From contig NC_015562.1 of assembly GCF_000214415.1 (NCBI RefSeq), forward strand, positions 1,116,001 through 1,180,000: DNA of 64,000 nt, read 5' to 3'. Positions 25,456-34,808 of the stretch are shown here, piece after piece. Each line of letters opens with the position of its first letter. The stretch's first letter is position 1. The notes under the pieces were generated by a model. It worked only from the letters and a program-made list of their open reading frames with translations. It searched no databases and was not told the DNA's origin. The stretch is from Methanotorris igneus Kol 5 (GTDB lineage: Archaea > AGJL01 > Methanococci > Methanococcales > Methanococcaceae). The translations under genes and the position numbers were made by a program.

Positions 25456-26676
25456 CTAATCATTATCATTCATTAACACATCCATCAACTCTTTTGACAG
25501 TGTATAGTAAACATTATTTCCCCTTCTTTCTTTATAAATATATCCCATTTCATAAATATCTGATAAATGCGTTCCTATAGTTCCCGGGGAGTTTCCTAAA
25601 TATTTTGCCAATTCTGTTACTGTTGAACTTCCTCCCAATTCTGCAAGAGCCCTAACAATTTTTGATTGGGCAGGCGTTAAGTGGTTTAATATTTGATGAC
25701 CAACACTAATTCCTAAAACCTCCATAGCCATCTTAACTATATCTTCATCAATCTTACTAACTCCTTTTTTTAATGCTATTGAAATTGATTCTGAGCAAGT
25801 CATTATTATCTTTCTTGGAATCCCATCACATTCTTCAACAATCTTATCTATTGCCGCATCAGTAAATGGATCAAATTCCTTTGCGTTTCCTATATGTGCG
25901 TCCTCCAACCTCCTCCTAATCAAATCATAAGATTCCTCTTTTGACAATGGAGGCATGTTAATAATTTTTGGTATCCTATCCCTCATTGCTGGGGAGATTT
26001 TTGTTAAGTCATCCATAAGTGTTGGGGAACCTGCAAAGAATGCCAAAATTCCATCTTCATATAGGAATGAGTGGAAAAACTGTAACAAGCTTAAACAACT
26101 TTTTTTGGCAAATTGATCCGCCTCATCAACTAAAATTATACAAAGTTTGTCCTCTTCTTTAACCTCATTCAATAAAAAATCAAGATCTCTCTCAATTCTC
26201 TCCCTTGGATAATGGACTGGTGTTCTGTCACCATAATCAACAAGTTTCCTATAAATTTCCATGATTTTCTGGGAGTGTTGTATATACTCACTGCATATTG
26301 TTCCATCTATTGAGATGAGGTTATCCCTTATTAGGTTGTAAAGTACTTGTATCAAAAATTGCCTTGGTGTTATTTGAGATGCCGTTAACTCAACAGCCCA
26401 ATGTCCCTGTTTTTTTGCAGCGTAATATATTATGTTGAGAAGAGAACTTTTACCAATCCCCTTTGTCCCAACAATAGCAGCGTTGACAACACTTCCATAC
26501 TGCGCAGCTCCAAAAATATCAGCTATTTCTCTCAACTCTGATGTTCTCCCAACAAAAAATTTGGTGTTTCCCCTTATAGGCTTCTCTGAAAATGGGTTTG
26601 TTTTCAATTTTAGCCTGTGCATGGCGTTTTTTGTTGCTGATGCTGAGTTGTATATAAAGTCAATAGGGTCCAACAT
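25456..26676 (-). CDS. Divergent Orc1/Cdc6-like AAA+ ATPase
   Basis: A 406-residue AAA+ ATPase. Walker A is GTKGIGKSS near residue 65, Walker B is CIILVDEADQF near 180, the sensor-1 region is ILAFFAGSPTL, and FDPFTDAAIDKIVEECDGIPR followed by KIIM is the lid. A C-terminal winged helix (LTPAQSKIVRALAELGGSST and VTELAKYLGNSPGTIGTHL) is the DNA-binding part. I take it as the counterpart of M. jannaschii MJ0774, which has been proposed as a remote Orc1/Cdc6 homologue next to the predicted origin. The start is ATG 26676 after GGTGATGCTT. A regulator of the same fold is the alternative. Confidence 0.75.
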   Translation of the reverse strand: MLDPIDFIYNSASATKNAMHRLKLKTNPFSEKPIRGNTKFFVGRTSELREIADIFGAAQYGSVVNAAIVGTKGIGKSSLLNIIYYAAKKQGHWAVELTASQITPRQFLIQVLYNLIRDNLISIDGTICSEYIQHSQKIMEIYRKLVDYGDRTPVHYPRERIERDLDFLLNEVKEEDKLCIILVDEADQFAKKSCLSLLQFFHSFLYEDGILAFFAGSPTLMDDLTKISPAMRDRIPKIINMPPLSKEESYDLIRRRLEDAHIGNAKEFDPFTDAAIDKIVEECDGIPRKIIMTCSESISIALKKGVSKIDEDIVKMAMEVLGISVGHQILNHLTPAQSKIVRALAELGGSSTVTELAKYLGNSPGTIGTHLSDIYEMGYIYKERRGNNVYYTLSKELMDVLMNDND

Positions 26677-27286
26677 AAGCATCACCCATCCACTAATACG
26701 TTTCGAAATTTTTTATATCTTTCGAAAATCCGAAAATCCAAAGATATTTTATCAATAAATTTAAATATAATAACTAATAAATACAATTTACAATAAAACA
26801 AATCTCATGAATATAAAAATATAAAGCTAAAATATTGTGAATCAAATAATAAACATGCGAAAACACCAACTACAAATGCTCAAAAATAAACTTGAATAAA
26901 ATTCAAAATTATATATATACTATTTTATTGTAATAAAGTTTATTTGAATTAGGATATTTCCAAAAACCGCATATAACAAAAGTGTGAATCAAAAATATAC
27001 AAATAACAAAACTATGAATTTAATGATTATATAACAAAACTTCAACAAATATAACCTACAATTGCTAAAAAATGATATTAAAATGTGATTATATATAAAA
27101 TACCTGATATTATTTTAAATCTAAAAAATCAAACAAATGACAAAATTTTTATACCACGACCTTTATGTTATTACTAAATAGGGCCAGAGGTCCATATATG
27201 AATCTAACCAAAATATCAGCAAAAAACTACATATAATTGAAATCTTAAAAAAATAAAACAAAATAACAATTATTCAATAAAAAAAG
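26677..27286. other. Candidate replication-origin intergenic region
   Basis: About 600 bp of extremely AT-rich DNA between the divergent Cdc6-like and HTH genes. It contains TTCGAAAATCCGAAAATCC (26721-26739), a long imperfect AT palindrome (AATAAACTTGAATAAAAT / ATTTTATTGTAATAAAGTTTATT, 26883-26957), and repeated GTGAATCAAA-type words (26836 and 26985). No gene is present. Origin function is inferred from composition, repeats and the adjacent initiator-like gene. Confidence 0.45.
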
Positions 27287-27295
27287 GTGATAACA

Positions 27296-27814
27296 ATGGA
27301 ATACCTACCAAAAGAGATTATTTCCACTCCATTCAGGAAGGCAATTTTGCACTATGTGTTAATACGTGGCACAACTTATCCACAACAGGTATCCGAAAAC
27401 CTTCGAATTTCCAAAGGGTTACCTTCTCAGTTTTTAAGGCTATGTACGGCATTAGGAGTTACAAAACGTGAAAGAAATGGACATAAAGTTCTCTATTCAT
27501 TGACAACTAAAGGCATAGCCATTTTAAAGCGATTATGTCCAGAAATCTTTGACTTGAGTTTTTCGAGTATTTTCGAAAACCTTTCGAAAATGAAATTCAA
27601 CACCAAGTATTACCCAGTCGAAAAAATAGGTTTTGAAGTCAAAAAAATTGTAGATAATTTTGGTGGAGTCACATTTGTATTCTACGATGCTGATGGAGAA
27701 GAAATTTCAAGAGTGTTCAAGCCGAAAAAAGGTAGTTGGTGGTGTATTTCATGCCAATCGTCAAATTGTAAGCATATTAACTATCTGAAGAAATATTACG
27801 ACAAAACAAATTAG
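27296..27814 (+). CDS. Winged-helix protein with C-terminal SWIM-like zinc motif
   Basis: A 172-residue putative DNA-binding protein. The N-terminal winged helix is visible (PQQVSENLRISKGLPSQFLR and VTKRERNGHKVLYSLTTKGI, residues 25-85). The C-terminus has WWCISCQSSNCKHINYLKK, a compact C-x2-C-x4-C-x-H set like a SWIM or similar zinc finger. ATG 27296 (MEYLPKE) follows AAAGGTGATAAC. It is transcribed away from the candidate origin towards a repeat-rich region that lies before an MCM-containing module, so it may regulate that module or an integrated element. Confidence 0.7.
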   Translation: MEYLPKEIISTPFRKAILHYVLIRGTTYPQQVSENLRISKGLPSQFLRLCTALGVTKRERNGHKVLYSLTTKGIAILKRLCPEIFDLSFSSIFENLSKMKFNTKYYPVEKIGFEVKKIVDNFGGVTFVFYDADGEEISRVFKPKKGSWWCISCQSSNCKHINYLKKYYDKTN

Positions 27815-28340
27815 TATGATTTCGAGTTTTCGAATCGCATGTATGTATATGCCTTGGAAGAGCATCAAAATTACAACTGGTAAAATTATCACAAGAAATA
27901 AAATAGGTTGAAATGTCAAGATTTTTTGGAGATTTTAGTTATTTTGTAGTAGATCATGCTAAATATAATTGTTAGTTCGTTTTATTTTAATCAGTGACGT
28001 TTTTAATTGATACTAATGTATAAATTCAGTTAATATTTGTTTTATATAATGTTTTGTTAATTATTTAGTTCTCAGACATTTATTGAGCGAGAACATAAAA
28101 TATAATAAAAAAATTTTTGTGATAATTTTGTTGGTGTACAATGTTGGATACATTCCCTCGCTACCTATACATACATGCACTTCGAAAACTCGAAACACTT
28201 TGAGAAATCATTTATATACTAATTTTCGTATTATATTGATTTACAACCTTTTAAGAAAAACTTATTTGTGACACTACTTTACACAAAACATATTTTATAA
28301 TAATCTTGCATCAGTTTTGTAATACTTCCAAAATTATATA
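27815..28340. other. Gene-free region framed by a 32-bp inverted repeat
   Basis: Arms at 27819-27850 and 28165-28196 match at about 27 of 32 positions. Each combines CATACATGC with TTCGAAAACTCGAAA. The DNA between is very AT-rich and contains no convincing gene. A related word, CTCGAAAACCCGAAAC, occurs at 28347-28362, and another lies in the Cdc6-like promoter. The block could be a second initiator-binding region, an attachment site or a MITE. Confidence 0.55.
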
Positions 28341-29411
28341 TCACTCGAAAACCCGAAACTTTTCTAATCTTGGGATTGGTTCAAGGATGTTATTTATTGT
28401 AAATAGTAGCAAAATAGGTTTTCTTGGGAGTTTATCCAGTAGTTTTATAAGTTTTTCTCTGTCGAGTTTTATAGAGAACCTTATGGTTTTTCTAATTTTC
28501 GTTTTTGATATAATACCCATGTCAACTAAATCGTTAAGGTATTCGTAAATTGTAGGTAATTTTAAATCTACCCTCTTTTCAATATCTTTGATTTTGAATT
28601 TTCTTAACTCACAGGCGATTTCCACAATTTTTTCATATTTTTTTGGGACGATTTTTGGCAATATCTTCAACCATGGGATTTTTATATCTCTTAGTGTTTT
28701 TAGTTCTTTTTTTGAGTGTATCAGTATTAACCTTATGACATTCAAATTGCCTTTCGAAATTTCGGCTAAGTATTTTGCAACCCTGTTGGAGATGTAATAG
28801 CCGAGGTGTTTGGCATAGTATTTAACTGCTGCTATGGTGTTTATTTTTGCGTTTTTAAATAACTTTTTTGCATAATCTATCGCTTCAATTGGGCATCTTA
28901 TTATAACAACGATATCATTTTTCGTTAATTCTTCAATAAATTTTACAAATGTTTTTGTGTGGTTCCATTTTGTTATGTTGTGGACGTCAAATACTAATAT
29001 TGGGCTTAATACTCTTAGCAAACTAATTACTTTTCCTCTAACTTTTTTAAAGTTCCAATTTTTAATGTCCTCAAATAAATCGCCTATCATCCTATACCAT
29101 GCTTTTTTTGCTCTGTAGTAGTTGTTGTTTGATTTATCAAAATATTTTTCGTGGATGTAGTTGAATAGATTTTTTAACCAATTTGCTTTTTCTATTTTTT
29201 TAAACATTACCATTTTGTCTTTTATTAAATAGATTAGCCGTGATATGGTTTTGCTTAATGATGGTGTGGCAAGAGATCTTATTATGGGTATATTATTGAC
29301 TACTTCAAAAGTTCCATTTTCATTTAATTCCAAAGTATTTTCCCTTATTGTGGGTATTAGCCATAACTTTTCGGTGAGAAAGTCCTCTGGGGAATTGTAT
29401 ATTATTTTCAT
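28341..29411 (-). CDS. Degenerate AAA+-like protein with winged helix, coupled to mcm
   Basis: A 356-residue protein whose start (ATG 29411, GTGAG ribosome site inside the mcm stop region) lies five bases after the mcm stop. No Walker A is visible. PILVFDVHNITKWNHTK near residue 135 resembles a Walker B strand with the catalytic acid replaced, IVVIIRCPIEAIDYAKK a sensor-1 strand, and RVAKYLAEISKGNLNVIRLI a sensor-2/lid helix. The C-terminus (KYEKIVEIACELRKFKIKDI and TIYEYLNDLVDMGIISK) is a winged helix. The order matches Orc/Cdc6 proteins, so I propose an ATP-site-dead initiator or MCM loader. The resemblance is by eye and weak in the N-terminal third. Confidence 0.6.
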   Translation of the reverse strand: MKIIYNSPEDFLTEKLWLIPTIRENTLELNENGTFEVVNNIPIIRSLATPSLSKTISRLIYLIKDKMVMFKKIEKANWLKNLFNYIHEKYFDKSNNNYYRAKKAWYRMIGDLFEDIKNWNFKKVRGKVISLLRVLSPILVFDVHNITKWNHTKTFVKFIEELTKNDIVVIIRCPIEAIDYAKKLFKNAKINTIAAVKYYAKHLGYYISNRVAKYLAEISKGNLNVIRLILIHSKKELKTLRDIKIPWLKILPKIVPKKYEKIVEIACELRKFKIKDIEKRVDLKLPTIYEYLNDLVDMGIISKTKIRKTIRFSIKLDREKLIKLLDKLPRKPILLLFTINNILEPIPRLEKFRVFE

Positions 29412-29416
29412 AATTC

Positions 29417-31450
29417 TCACATCAACCTATATTTTCCAGGTTTCGGCTCGTCTATATCTCCATTTTTGATGAGTTTTTTAATGATTCTTTCTGCCTCTTC
29501 CTCGTCGATTCCCTCTTTTTCACATAACTCTATAACATCCTCATGCAACGCAAGACCATCATCTTTCTTTTCAGCAAGTTTTTTGATAATTTCATAAACT
29601 ACCATCATCTTATCTCTATCTTTCTTTGAGACACCGGTTATTTTATCAATATCAAACTGTCCCGTATCTGGGTCATAGGCAATCTGTTTCAGGCATTCGG
29701 TGATTATGTTTATTGCCTCTTTTGCATCCTCTTCATCAACCACATCCTTTAACTTTGCCTTTGCATGTGCCTCTGCCAATCTTATAGCTGCCTCTAATTG
29801 TCTTGCTGTAACTTGTATAGTTCCTTTTCTCATGTTTAGGTAGTAGTTTATGAGAAGTTTTTTTGCCTCTTCAGATATTACTGGCTTCTTTTGTCTTGCG
29901 TAGGCAATGTATTTTATTATAAATTCAGTATCTATCTTGATTCCATCAACCTCAATATATTCTAACCCAACTTTTTTGTTTACTTCTTTATCTAAGTGTG
30001 CCCTATGGATGTCTATGATGTGTTCTGCTATTTCTTTGTCTTTTGCCCTATCTGGTTCATCTCTTATTGGAAAGATCAAATCAAATCTACTCAACAATGG
30101 TGCAGGAATGTTTATCTGCTCTGCAACTGAAATGTTAGGGTCGAATCTTCCCCATCTTGGGTTACATGCTGCCAAAATTGCACATTCTGCTGGAAGTTTT
30201 GCAGTGATTCCCCCTTTACTGATGTGTATTGTTTGACTCTCCATTGCCTCCAAAACATAACTTTGCAAATCTTTATTTACTGTTAACTCATCGATACATG
30301 CCGTTCCCTTATTTGCCTTCACCAAGAGCCCTGGTTTAATAACCCATGTGTCATCTCCAATCTCTGTCTTTTCCCTCACTACTGCCGCGGTTAAACCAAC
30401 TCCTGATGCAGTGGTTACAGAACCATATAAATTCCCAGGAAGTTCTGCGATCCTCCTCAATATCACTGTTTTCCCGATTCCTGGGTCGGTGATTAATAAA
30501 ATATGGATGTCTGCTCTTTTATTTCCTTTTTTAACCCCTTTTATTTGTTGCAAAAATACTGCTTTTTTAACAACTTCATGCCCTTTTATCTCAGGAATTA
30601 GTCGATCTGCCAATAAATCCACAACATTTGGCAATTTACTTATTTTTTCAATCTTTTTGATATCTTCCCTACTTAATTCCATTTCAATTTCATCATCTAA
30701 AACCTCACAGTTGATTCCTTTTATATAGATGTCATATATTGGCACTTTTTTGTTCTTTTGTATTTTTATTGGAATGCCTGTTATCTTTACCCTTCCACAG
30801 TAAATCCCTGGGGAGTTCTCTAAGAATACGGTTATGTATTTTGGTGGTTCCTCTGGGTCATCCATCAAATCCAAAGGTTGTTGAACTTTTATCTCTTGAA
30901 AGTCCATGTATTCACATTCATTGTCAATTAAAACTAAATCATTCCCTCCACATTCACAACTTGGCTCTTCAAATGGTTCAAATGGGTTATCTATGTTTAT
31001 AGTTATTTTTTTCCCACATTTGCTACAAATAAATGTTGCTTTTTTTAGAACTGTTTTTATTTTTGTTGCCGTCACTACTATACCTTCAAACTCTACGAGT
31101 TTTCCAATTGTGTGACTTTTTATGTCACTGATTGTTAGCAATCTATTTTTGTGCCTAACTTTTTTGAAAATTTCCGGTAGATTTTTTATTGTGATGATGC
31201 ATTTTGGATATTCGTTTTTTAATGAATAGTATGCTTTACGGTAACACTCTTCTATGAATTTTAATCCTTCCTTAGGATGTTCATGAATAAATTCCACAAA
31301 ATCAATTAATCCAAATTTATAAATTTCAGTTAGGTCAATCTCAATTCTTTCTTTTTCTGAGATGATATCGTCGTTGTAGAAATTTCTGATGTAATATATA
31401 AGCAGATCTTTTAATTCCTCAATTTTTTCTCTTATTTTGTCATTTTCCAT
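29417..31450 (-). CDS. mcm: MCM replicative helicase
   Basis: A 677-residue MCM. The N-terminal domain has a zinc module (CSKCGKKITI...CECGG, residues 140-170). The AAA+ domain has Walker A LITDPGIGKTVILRR, Walker B TACIDELT, sensor 1 AACNPRWGRFD and the arginine finger LLSRFDLIFPI. A C-terminal winged helix (DGLALHEDVIELCEKEGIDE) closes the protein. It is complete and of normal length. Methanococcales often carry several mcm genes, some on integrated elements, so this copy may not be the main chromosomal helicase. It is coupled to the degenerate AAA+ gene. A MITE starts 21 bases upstream of its ATG. Confidence 0.95.
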   Translation of the reverse strand: MENDKIREKIEELKDLLIYYIRNFYNDDIISEKERIEIDLTEIYKFGLIDFVEFIHEHPKEGLKFIEECYRKAYYSLKNEYPKCIITIKNLPEIFKKVRHKNRLLTISDIKSHTIGKLVEFEGIVVTATKIKTVLKKATFICSKCGKKITINIDNPFEPFEEPSCECGGNDLVLIDNECEYMDFQEIKVQQPLDLMDDPEEPPKYITVFLENSPGIYCGRVKITGIPIKIQKNKKVPIYDIYIKGINCEVLDDEIEMELSREDIKKIEKISKLPNVVDLLADRLIPEIKGHEVVKKAVFLQQIKGVKKGNKRADIHILLITDPGIGKTVILRRIAELPGNLYGSVTTASGVGLTAAVVREKTEIGDDTWVIKPGLLVKANKGTACIDELTVNKDLQSYVLEAMESQTIHISKGGITAKLPAECAILAACNPRWGRFDPNISVAEQINIPAPLLSRFDLIFPIRDEPDRAKDKEIAEHIIDIHRAHLDKEVNKKVGLEYIEVDGIKIDTEFIIKYIAYARQKKPVISEEAKKLLINYYLNMRKGTIQVTARQLEAAIRLAEAHAKAKLKDVVDEEDAKEAINIITECLKQIAYDPDTGQFDIDKITGVSKKDRDKMMVVYEIIKKLAEKKDDGLALHEDVIELCEKEGIDEEEAERIIKKLIKNGDIDEPKPGKYRLM

Positions 31451-32363: not shown

Positions 32364-33819
32364 TATTTTTTATTTTTTTACTCCATTCTTTTAAATAATC
32401 TTCAAAATTTTTATTTTCTTCATTTATGCCTTTAATTTCGACTTTCGGTATTTCGAGTTGTATATCCAATTCCATTGCCAACTTACAGAACTCTTCATAA
32501 TCAATCTCCACTTCAGGAATTAGGCCTCTCCTTTCCATTTCGACTTTTCGGATGCCGATAACTTTGACGCCAATCTCTTCTCCAATCTTTTTAACTTTTT
32601 CAAAAACATTAAAATTATAAACCCTATTTAGTATTATTCCCTCAACTTTAATTCCCATCTCTTTTAGTAGGGAATAATATGCTAAGCTTTCAACAAATGC
32701 CCCCTCAATACCGCTTTTATTACATGCAGAGACAATATAAACTGGGAAATTTAATAACTTCGCTATCTCAGCCCCACTGTAATTTTTCTTATTTAATGCC
32801 CCAGTAAATGCCCCCATAACCCCTTCAATGATTACATAATCGTAGTTGGAATTTTTTAGGTAATTTAGGTATTCAGAGACTTCACACCAACCTCTATCAC
32901 TAATTTTTATACTACTATATTTTAGCATTGGTTCCCTCAACAGATACAAAGCTGGGACGATATCCCTAACATCAGGCCCAATCTTTGATACCAAAACCTT
33001 TCCATCTAACTTTGAGCAAATTGCAGTAGTTAAAAATGTTTTTCCACTTTCTGAGCCCGTTGCTAATAAAATGATTCCCCGAATTTCTTTTTTGTTTTCT
33101 GTGTTTGTTATGTTTTTGTTTGTGTTATTTCTGAATTTTAATCCTCTTAATTTTAATTTTTTCATAACTTCTTTATTTTTTTCAAGGATTTTTTTTCTCT
33201 CTTCTTCATCAACCTTTAAGTTGTCTAATATATTGTTTCTTATATGTTCGTTGTCCAAAAACCCATGCACCATGGTTCCAATGACTTTTCCACAAACAGC
33301 CCCAGATATGATATTTTTACAGGTTTTTTGCATCTTATAGTTTAGTTTTTTGACCTCTGATATTGTGAGGGGTTTGGTTTTTTTATCCGTTATCTTTATA
33401 TTTCCATAGGTGTGGCAGTGAAATCCTTCTCCAACAGTTCCTTTTTTTCCTAAGATTGAATCTGTTTCAAGTGTTGCTTTAACCCTATCTGTGCAAATTA
33501 GTGGGGAAAATTCAACATTCAATAAACCCAATCCCTCCCTAATTATTGGAACCGGGCTTTTCCTCCCAATGTCTATTTTTTCCGATAAGATTTGAAAACC
33601 GCTACAAATTCCAATTATGTACCCATCAAAATTGACAATTTCTTTTTTTAGGTTTTCATTGAGTGATTTGCTTTCTACTATACTACCTCCTGGAATAATA
33701 AGCATGTCTAAATCTTTAATATCCTTGATATTATTTTCATCGATGATTTTGGTTGGTAAATTTCCGAAGTATTCAAAACATGGAAGAGAACCTTTTATGT
33801 CTAAGATACCAATTTCCAT
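32356..33819 (-). CDS. CobB/CobQ-like amidotransferase with permuted domain order
   Basis: A 487-residue protein joining a class-I glutamine amidotransferase domain at the N-terminus (residues 1-225: [12 protein letters not shown], nucleophile in [17 protein letters not shown] histidine) to a dethiobiotin-synthetase/CobB-like ATPase domain at the C-terminus (residues 245-460: [35 protein letters not shown]). CobB, CobQ and CfbB carry these in the opposite order. Its substrate is therefore uncertain; amidation of a corrinoid or other tetrapyrrole acid is the family expectation. The start ATG 33819 and its GGTGT site lie only about ten bases from the end of an IS481-type element. Confidence 0.75.
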
Positions 33820-33829
33820 AATTACACCT

Positions 33830-34808
33830 GTGGTATCCCAAAATTATTTCGCATCAGTAGGTAATAAAAAGAGGAATGTTAATAATAAGAATAATATGAA
33901 GGGGGCAAAACTTAACGATAAAATGATTAGGAAAATCATTAGATGGAAAGAAAAGGGCTTTGAAACCAGCCGTATAGCTAAGAAAGTTGGAGTAACTCCC
34001 CGTAGAGTTCAGCAAATATGGAAAGAATATAGAGAGACCGGAGAAATTCCAAAGATAAAACGTAGGGGTAGAAAGCCAAAGAAAATATCGAAGGGAGAGA
34101 TTGATTTAGTTCTTAAAGCAGTTGAGGAGTATAAAGGAACCAGTGCAGTGCATTTAGAGAAATACATAGAGAATAAGCACAATATACATATTCCTCATAA
34201 TCGTATATATACTATACTGAAGGAGTTCGATCTCACCCACAAGAGAAAGAAGAAAAGAAAGAAAAAGCCAAAGCGATTCAGCGCTTCAAAACCTAACGAA
34301 ATGTGGCAGATGGATTTTAAAATCGTAGATGTGGATGGAGTTAGATATAATCTCCTGTTAATAATTGATGATCACAGTAGATTCATCCTACACGCTGGAA
34401 TTTACGAAGAAGCTACAACCGACGTTGTTATCTCGGCTTTAGAAGAATGCTTTGAAAAGTATGGAACGCCGAAAAAGATATTAACTGACAATGGAACCCA
34501 ATTCGTCCCTGCAAGGGGTGGAATCTCGAGATTTCAGAAGTTTCTAATGGAAAGGGAAATTTTGCATATAAAAACCTCAATCAGACACCCTCAAACGATA
34601 GGAAAAGTTGAAAGAATAAATAGGGAAGTTGAATATCGACTGGACAAGTTCAACAACCTGAAAGAATTCGTTGAATGGCACAACCAAATAAAACCACACC
34701 GCTCATTAAGTTTTAAAACCCCATACGAAGTATACTTCGAAAATACCAAATGCAATAAAGAGGTGATAACATGAACATGAACAACGAAATAATTTCAGGA
34801 TACAACAA
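33830..34808 (+). mobile_element. IS481-type insertion sequence
   Basis: Terminal inverted repeats are TGTGGTATCCCAAAATTATT on the left (33830) and the complement of TGTTGTATCCTGAAATTATT on the right (to about 34807), about 23 bp long. They enclose one rve-type transposase. I could not define a clear target duplication. It sits between the CobB/CobQ-like start codon and a channel gene whose 5' part is missing. Confidence 0.8.
33896..34774 (+). CDS. IS481-family transposase
   Basis: A 292-residue DDE (rve integrase-core) transposase. An N-terminal helix-turn-helix pair (IIRWKEKGFETSRIAKKVGV and TPRRVQQIWKEYRETGEIP) is followed by a basic linker and the catalytic core. The acidic triad can be seen as WQMDFKIVDVDG (first Asp), ILTDNGTQF (second Asp) and GKVERINREV (Glu). 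The C-terminus has LKEFVEWHNQIKPHRSLSFK, typical of this group. I start at ATG 33896; the frame is open farther upstream but that part antisenses the neighbouring gene. It looks intact and probably active. Confidence 0.9.
   Translation: MKGAKLNDKMIRKIIRWKEKGFETSRIAKKVGVTPRRVQQIWKEYRETGEIPKIKRRGRKPKKISKGEIDLVLKAVEEYKGTSAVHLEKYIENKHNIHIPHNRIYTILKEFDLTHKRKKKRKKKPKRFSASKPNEMWQMDFKIVDVDGVRYNLLLIIDDHSRFILHAGIYEEATTDVVISALEECFEKYGTPKKILTDNGTQFVPARGGISRFQKFLMEREILHIKTSIRHPQTIGKVERINREVEYRLDKFNNLKEFVEWHNQIKPHRSLSFKTPYEVYFENTKCNKEVIT

Follow-up and report, generated by a model that had tools for sequence, protein, structure and literature searches.

Results

Genes and noncoding regions at the locus

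We analysed a window of 64,000 nucleotides of the Methanotorris igneus Kol 5 genome (G000:C1:1116001-1180000 of 1.854 Mb); coordinates below are positions in this window unless a contig is named. The gene of interest, here referred to as pseudo-Orc, lies on the minus strand at 28341..29411 (ATG at 29411) and encodes 356 amino acids comprising a degenerate AAA+-like domain (residues 1-235) and a C-terminal winged helix (residues 247-325; 28437..28673, minus strand), the latter recognised from weak Pfam matches of the TrmB/ArsR type and from Foldseek. Directly upstream is mcm-1 (29417..31450, minus strand), an MCM helicase paralogue identified by Pfam (MCM, E = 7e-77) and by its place in the MCM tree, and the five bases that the original prediction had counted between the mcm stop and the pseudo-Orc ATG are indeed there. 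On the other side of pseudo-Orc lie, in order, noncoding region A (27815-28340), h175 (27287..27814, plus strand), noncoding region B (26686..27286, no strand assigned) and orc (25456..26685, minus strand). Region A separates the 3' ends of two convergent genes, pseudo-Orc and h175. The latter is conserved in the block and encodes a 175-amino-acid helix-turn-helix (HTH) protein with a Cys/His-rich C-terminus, whereas orc, about 1.7 kb from pseudo-Orc, encodes a divergent Orc1/Cdc6 with intact Walker A and Walker B motifs. An open reading frame of the rve integrase/transposase type is also found near the locus (33617-34774).

The pseudo-Orc gene is conserved within the Methanococcales

Pseudo-Orc occurs as a single copy in 26 of 36 Methanococcales genomes. 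Since its reading frame and the same ATG are kept in nearly all of these 26, and since dN/dS between close pairs is 0.05-0.17, indicating strong purifying selection, we consider it a real gene that encodes a working protein and not a gene in decay. No full-length homologue was found outside the order, including in 115 and 200 genomes searched from two other archaeal phyla; almost all matches there were to the winged helix alone, and the few partial matches that reached further extended back to position ~177, some of them in broken frames. When genome contigs were scanned with pseudo-Orc, four loci were returned, all from Methanococcales, and a scan of viral sequences returned one winged-helix fragment. 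An identity as a transposon protein or a nuclease, which by the original prediction would have refuted it, was supported by none of the family libraries searched.

The ATP site is degenerate throughout the family

We surveyed the ATP motifs in 24 aligned members of the pseudo-Orc family. The original prediction had seen no Walker A motif. The functional motif is gone, as both central glycines are replaced in 24 of 24 members, but a degenerate Walker A became visible once the homologues were aligned: residues 48-55 (ATPSLSKT; 29247..29270, minus strand) read mostly [AG][TS]P[SN][LVI][KSR][KR][TM] across the family, residue 54 being K or R in every member, and they lie where strand 41-48 gives way to helix 52-63, the position of a P-loop. 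A Walker-B-like strand is placed by the structural model and the alignment at residues 138-143 (28983..29000, minus strand). Its FDVHN sequence, correctly read in the original prediction as lacking the catalytic Glu, carries Asp142 at a position that is D or E in 23 of 24 members, followed by V, I, L or T where the Glu would stand (0/24 members have it) and then by His or Asn. Trp149, after this strand, is invariant in the 24 members. The sensor-1 position is Arg172 in 23 of 24 with an invariant Pro174, and the lid contains an invariant Gly221 and a near-invariant Asn222; a sensor-2 Arg is absent from all 24. The pair of motifs by which Orc1/Cdc6 proteins are recognised (Walker A GxxGxGK[ST] and Walker B hhhhDE) was found in 0/24 members. 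As judged from these aligned motifs, the ATP site of pseudo-Orc is dead in 24/24 members, and the earlier description of the protein as a pseudo-ATPase extends to every one of them.

The predicted fold resembles AAA+ proteins with a winged helix

We modelled pseudo-Orc with AlphaFold from the 24-sequence family alignment, and obtained a confident model of the whole chain (pLDDT 87, pTM 0.79); a model of the N-domain alone scored pLDDT 89 and pTM 0.85. The whole-chain model comprises strand 41-48, helix 52-63 (at the P-loop position), helices within 80-135, strand 138-143 (Walker B), helix 153-164, strand 168-174 (sensor 1), helix 175-184, three lid helices (192-231) and a winged helix at about 247-325, in agreement with the order of elements read earlier from the sequence (Walker-B-like strand, sensor-1-like strand, lid, winged helix). 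When the whole chain was compared with the PDB by Foldseek, the best matches that covered both domains were ORC2 chains from the ORC structures of yeast, fly and human (E = 2.3e-3 to 3e-2; TM-scores were low); chain B of these entries is what we take to be ORC2. RFC5 and Apaf-1 ranked after ORC2, and winged-helix regulators matched the C-terminus. With the N-domain alone, 44 of the 50 best matches were AAA+ proteins from about a dozen families, among them RdrA, RFC subunits, RuvB, TnsC/MuB, MgsA, PCH-2, Orc1/Cdc6, Sir3, RuvBL, ClpX, Mpa and ORC, and the remaining six were eIF2B, SSADH and retron ATPases. Some family members also matched Hda_lid weakly. Neither Foldseek search of the PDB returned a match at E < 1e-3 and TM-scores were low, so an AAA+ fold is favoured for the N-domain but unproven, homology being suggested by the ranking of folds in a predicted structure. 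Viral structures gave no significant Foldseek match, the best being ORF A460 of the SSV-K1 virus (E = 1.3e-2).

Sequence comparison separates the two domains. By hhalign, only the winged helix of pseudo-Orc aligned with the divergent Orc (probability 31) and with canonical Orc1/Cdc6 (probability 21), and the N-domain aligned with neither of these nor with MCM. In a positive control, the divergent Orc itself aligned with canonical Orc1/Cdc6 over 315 columns (probability 96, E = 4.5e-9). Over its AAA+-like domain, pseudo-Orc matched neither the TIGR02928 profile nor that of canonical Orc1/Cdc6, and sequence and profile searches of the PDB with pseudo-Orc returned nothing relevant. Because it is essentially the winged helix alone that aligns and finds matches, the statement that pseudo-Orc is an Orc1/Cdc6 is unsupported, whereas it is possible that it acts like an Orc subunit; the features it has in common with Orc1/Cdc6 are the C-terminal winged helix and a gene that adjoins origin repeats. 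Thus the fold first proposed for this protein holds up reasonably: the architecture of an AAA+-like domain plus winged helix and the replication context stand, and descent from Orc/Cdc6 is not borne out by sequence, as profile similarity in the N-domain is lacking.

Two classes of conserved repeats flank h175

Thirteen of 14 loci keep the gene order pseudo-Orc, region A, h175, region B, orc, and with it the placement of an inverted repeat pair in region A and of same-strand iterons in region B. In the 14th locus (G025) orc lies about 193 kb away, and pseudo-Orc, region A and h175 are still together. Region B is 80% AT in the window and carries iterons at 27198-27204, 26984-26990, 26837-26843 and 26807-26813. 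Over the 14 loci the iteron pattern [TG]ATTCA[CT] occurs 65 times forward and once in reverse in region B (about 10 expected), and 21 iteron pairs are spaced at 30±1 bp (0.03 expected in shuffles) with a typical geometry of 184-30-156-30 bp, these counts being descriptive because the pattern was picked after the repeats had been seen. DoriC/Ori-Finder 2 lists TT[TA][GT]ATTCA[TC][GA]AT[AT]T[AT]T[AT] as the ORB motif of the Methanococcaceae (PMC4164010), a motif that we found only after our pattern had been derived. Since the iterons equal this motif, region B is a predicted origin of the published type.

The arms of the inverted pair in region A are 30-bp elements (TTTCGARTTTTCGAGNNRYATGTATGTATA) at 28166..28195 (minus strand) and 27820..27849 (plus strand). 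The pair spans 376 bp in the window, 376-378 bp in most genomes and 367 bp in G031. With up to three mismatches allowed, 15 genomes (13 of genus g5 and the two of the genus of the window) each carry exactly one copy of the element on either strand, always between pseudo-Orc and h175, and a search with a reversed control gave zero matches. Other Methanococcaceae show versions that have diverged further, and the pair is absent from genomes that lack the module of mcm-1, pseudo-Orc, h175 and orc. No published description of it was found in the open-licence literature. Copies of the element core, TTTCGAGTTTTCGA, are also found at the 3' end of the pseudo-Orc gene (28344..28358, minus strand) and just upstream of orc (26721..26735, minus strand); in several loci such copies sit 49-124 bp upstream of orc. 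Cumulative skews, computed over 1.66 of 1.85 Mb, gave no clear position for the origin: at the locus the MK disparity is close to its maximum, but the peak itself is 75 kb away. The unique inverted pair offers a precise candidate address for the origin.

Elsewhere on the chromosome, isolated exact copies of the core occur at G000:C1:739309, 1077324 and 1260590. Two of these adjoin identical 221-amino-acid genes, likely duplicated and cas6-like, and the third lies between convergent genes. The genes at these copies have no evident tie to initiation.

Linkage to mcm-1 is confined to one family

The original prediction had coupled pseudo-Orc to MCM. In the Methanococcaceae mcm-1 does lie directly upstream of pseudo-Orc, with gaps of 4-121 bp (it is farther off in L005), but a survey across the Methanococcales confined the pair to this family. 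In Methanocaldococcus the upstream gene, which overlaps the pseudo-Orc start by 4-14 bp, is a tetrapyrrole methylase (L011 being the locus tested), and mcm-1 is elsewhere. The tie of pseudo-Orc to orc and the predicted oriC spans the order and is stronger than its tie to mcm. Of the mcm genes of M. maripaludis, MMP0030 alone is likely to be essential (PMC3984812), and an mcm near a Cdc6-like gene was noted earlier in this species (PMC2643942). From gene order, we infer that MMP0030 is mcm-1 and the next gene pseudo-Orc; literature text on the gene numbers neighbouring MMP0030 was not found. In one locus (L119, G035:C102) mcm-1 lies inside a 1530-amino-acid open frame, perhaps with an intein.

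The genes mcm-1, pseudo-Orc, h175 and orc share one pattern of presence and absence across the 36 genomes of the order, and every genome with pseudo-Orc also has mcm-1. G035 (81% complete) has mcm-1 only, and in G015 mcm-1 and orc stand at the ends of two contigs, hence the genes between them fall in an assembly gap. The module is absent from G002 (one complete contig), G007, G011, G013, G018 and G020, which form one clade of the MCM tree within the same family, and from G019 and G021, two incomplete genomes whose neighbour G017 carries the module. Because the MCM tree shows a single clade of six plus incomplete genomes, we rejected repeated co-loss in eight genomes and counted one loss event. 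The module-less clade retains another ancient MCM paralogue, and the search for Orc-like genes in module-less genomes gave nothing above background.

Discussion

The observations on pseudo-Orc are that the gene is real and conserved, that all its ATP motifs are lost, that its model is confident and that it is linked throughout the order to orc and the predicted oriC. We favour, if only just, the reading that it is a non-hydrolysing Orc-like partner that would work together with the active Orc and MCM at oriC. Its most likely partner is the ATP-binding divergent Orc1/Cdc6, whose gene is about 1.7 kb away. In the mechanism that we propose, the ATP-binding Orc would recognise the iterons, and pseudo-Orc, unable to use ATP, would be positioned either on the inverted 30-bp pair or next to the iterons that Orc occupies. 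There it would supply a structural AAA+ surface, as Orc2 and Orc3 do in eukaryotic ORC, and contribute another winged helix, which might serve the inverted pair, and the resulting assembly would recruit MCM-1 to oriC. DNA binding, partner binding and MCM recruitment are thus inferred roles of pseudo-Orc. Against this reading stand the low fold scores, the lack of N-domain profile similarity, the unlinked mcm in Methanocaldococcus and the unlinked orc in G025; the support from co-occurrence of the module amounts to one loss event in a linked block.

Among the alternatives, we regard as unlikely, though the least so of them, that pseudo-Orc regulates the origin locus by binding DNA. It would then repress through its winged helix, or else inhibit initiation in a role like that of SeqA or Hda, and would occupy the element cores (TTTCGAGTTTTCGA) of region A and of the orc promoter outside any Orc/MCM complex. 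Its best sequence matches are winged helices of the TrmB/ArsR type and the core copies upstream of orc would suit such a role, but the large conserved AAA+-like domain exceeds the needs of a repressor. The HTH protein of the same block, h175, would be an equally good candidate for a regulator. It shares both the block and the phyletic pattern of pseudo-Orc, and is itself a candidate origin-binding or regulatory protein.

The original idea of a dedicated recruiter or loader of MCM-1 that works independently of the Orc-like protein now appears improbable: the position of mcm-1 directly upstream in the Methanococcaceae and its presence in every genome with pseudo-Orc speak for it, yet in Methanocaldococcus pseudo-Orc adjoins the tetrapyrrole methylase, not mcm, and linkage to orc and oriC is kept. 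Less probable still is that the N-domain has some other alpha/beta fold with a generic resemblance to AAA+ proteins. This would account for the missing significant structural or profile match and for the stretch between the helices at 52-63 and 98-117, in which no strand beta-2 is clear; it fits poorly with the dominance of about a dozen AAA+ families among the best N-domain matches (44/50) and with a P-loop remnant and Walker-B strand that are in register with the predicted strands and helices.

The favoured role of Orc-like partner can be set against known systems. Eukaryotic ORC2, and also ORC3, combine a degenerate AAA+-like domain with a winged helix as pseudo-Orc does, and ORC2 chains are its best full-length Foldseek matches; there is, however, no sequence similarity, and the TM-scores are low. 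Archaeal Orc1/Cdc6 proteins, including the divergent Methanococcales form, share with it the order of elements, the winged helix and a gene beside the predicted origin, but keep the Walker A and B motifs, of which pseudo-Orc has neither, and show no profile similarity to its N-domain. The RFC small subunits of the clamp loader (RFC5) resemble it in the ranking of N-domain folds and in a lid-like helix pair with GN[LI], whereas in pseudo-Orc a winged helix replaces the collar and the gene lies at an origin. WhiP, the initiator at Sulfolobus oriC3, likewise has a winged helix, is not an Orc1 and has its gene next to an origin (PMC5333045, PMC4010727); it is described as a distant homologue of Cdt1, while pseudo-Orc has an AAA+-like domain. 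The predicted Methanococcaceae oriC of Ori-Finder 2 has the same ORB motif as the region B iterons, and the available text of that account (PMC4164010) does not mention the inverted 30-bp pair, the 184-30-156-30 geometry, h175 or pseudo-Orc.

The Methanococcales stand apart from other archaea in replication. They are said in one review to lack a recognisable Orc1/Cdc6, their initiation being called an intriguing unknown (PMC3984812), and another describes their Orc genes as very divergent and their MCM recruitment as an extreme case (PMC5333045). Pseudo-Orc lies at the predicted oriC, and its gene is linked to that of the divergent Orc and, within a single family, also to an mcm gene; this makes it a concrete candidate for a missing partner in initiation. 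As a bolder and distinctly more tentative proposal, Methanococcales may use a heteromeric archaeal ORC that consists of an ATP-binding Orc1-like and an ATP-dead Orc2-like subunit, at an origin with two conserved classes of sites, the iterons and the inverted 30-bp pair. If true, this would be an archaeal counterpart of the division between active and degenerate subunits in eukaryotic ORC.
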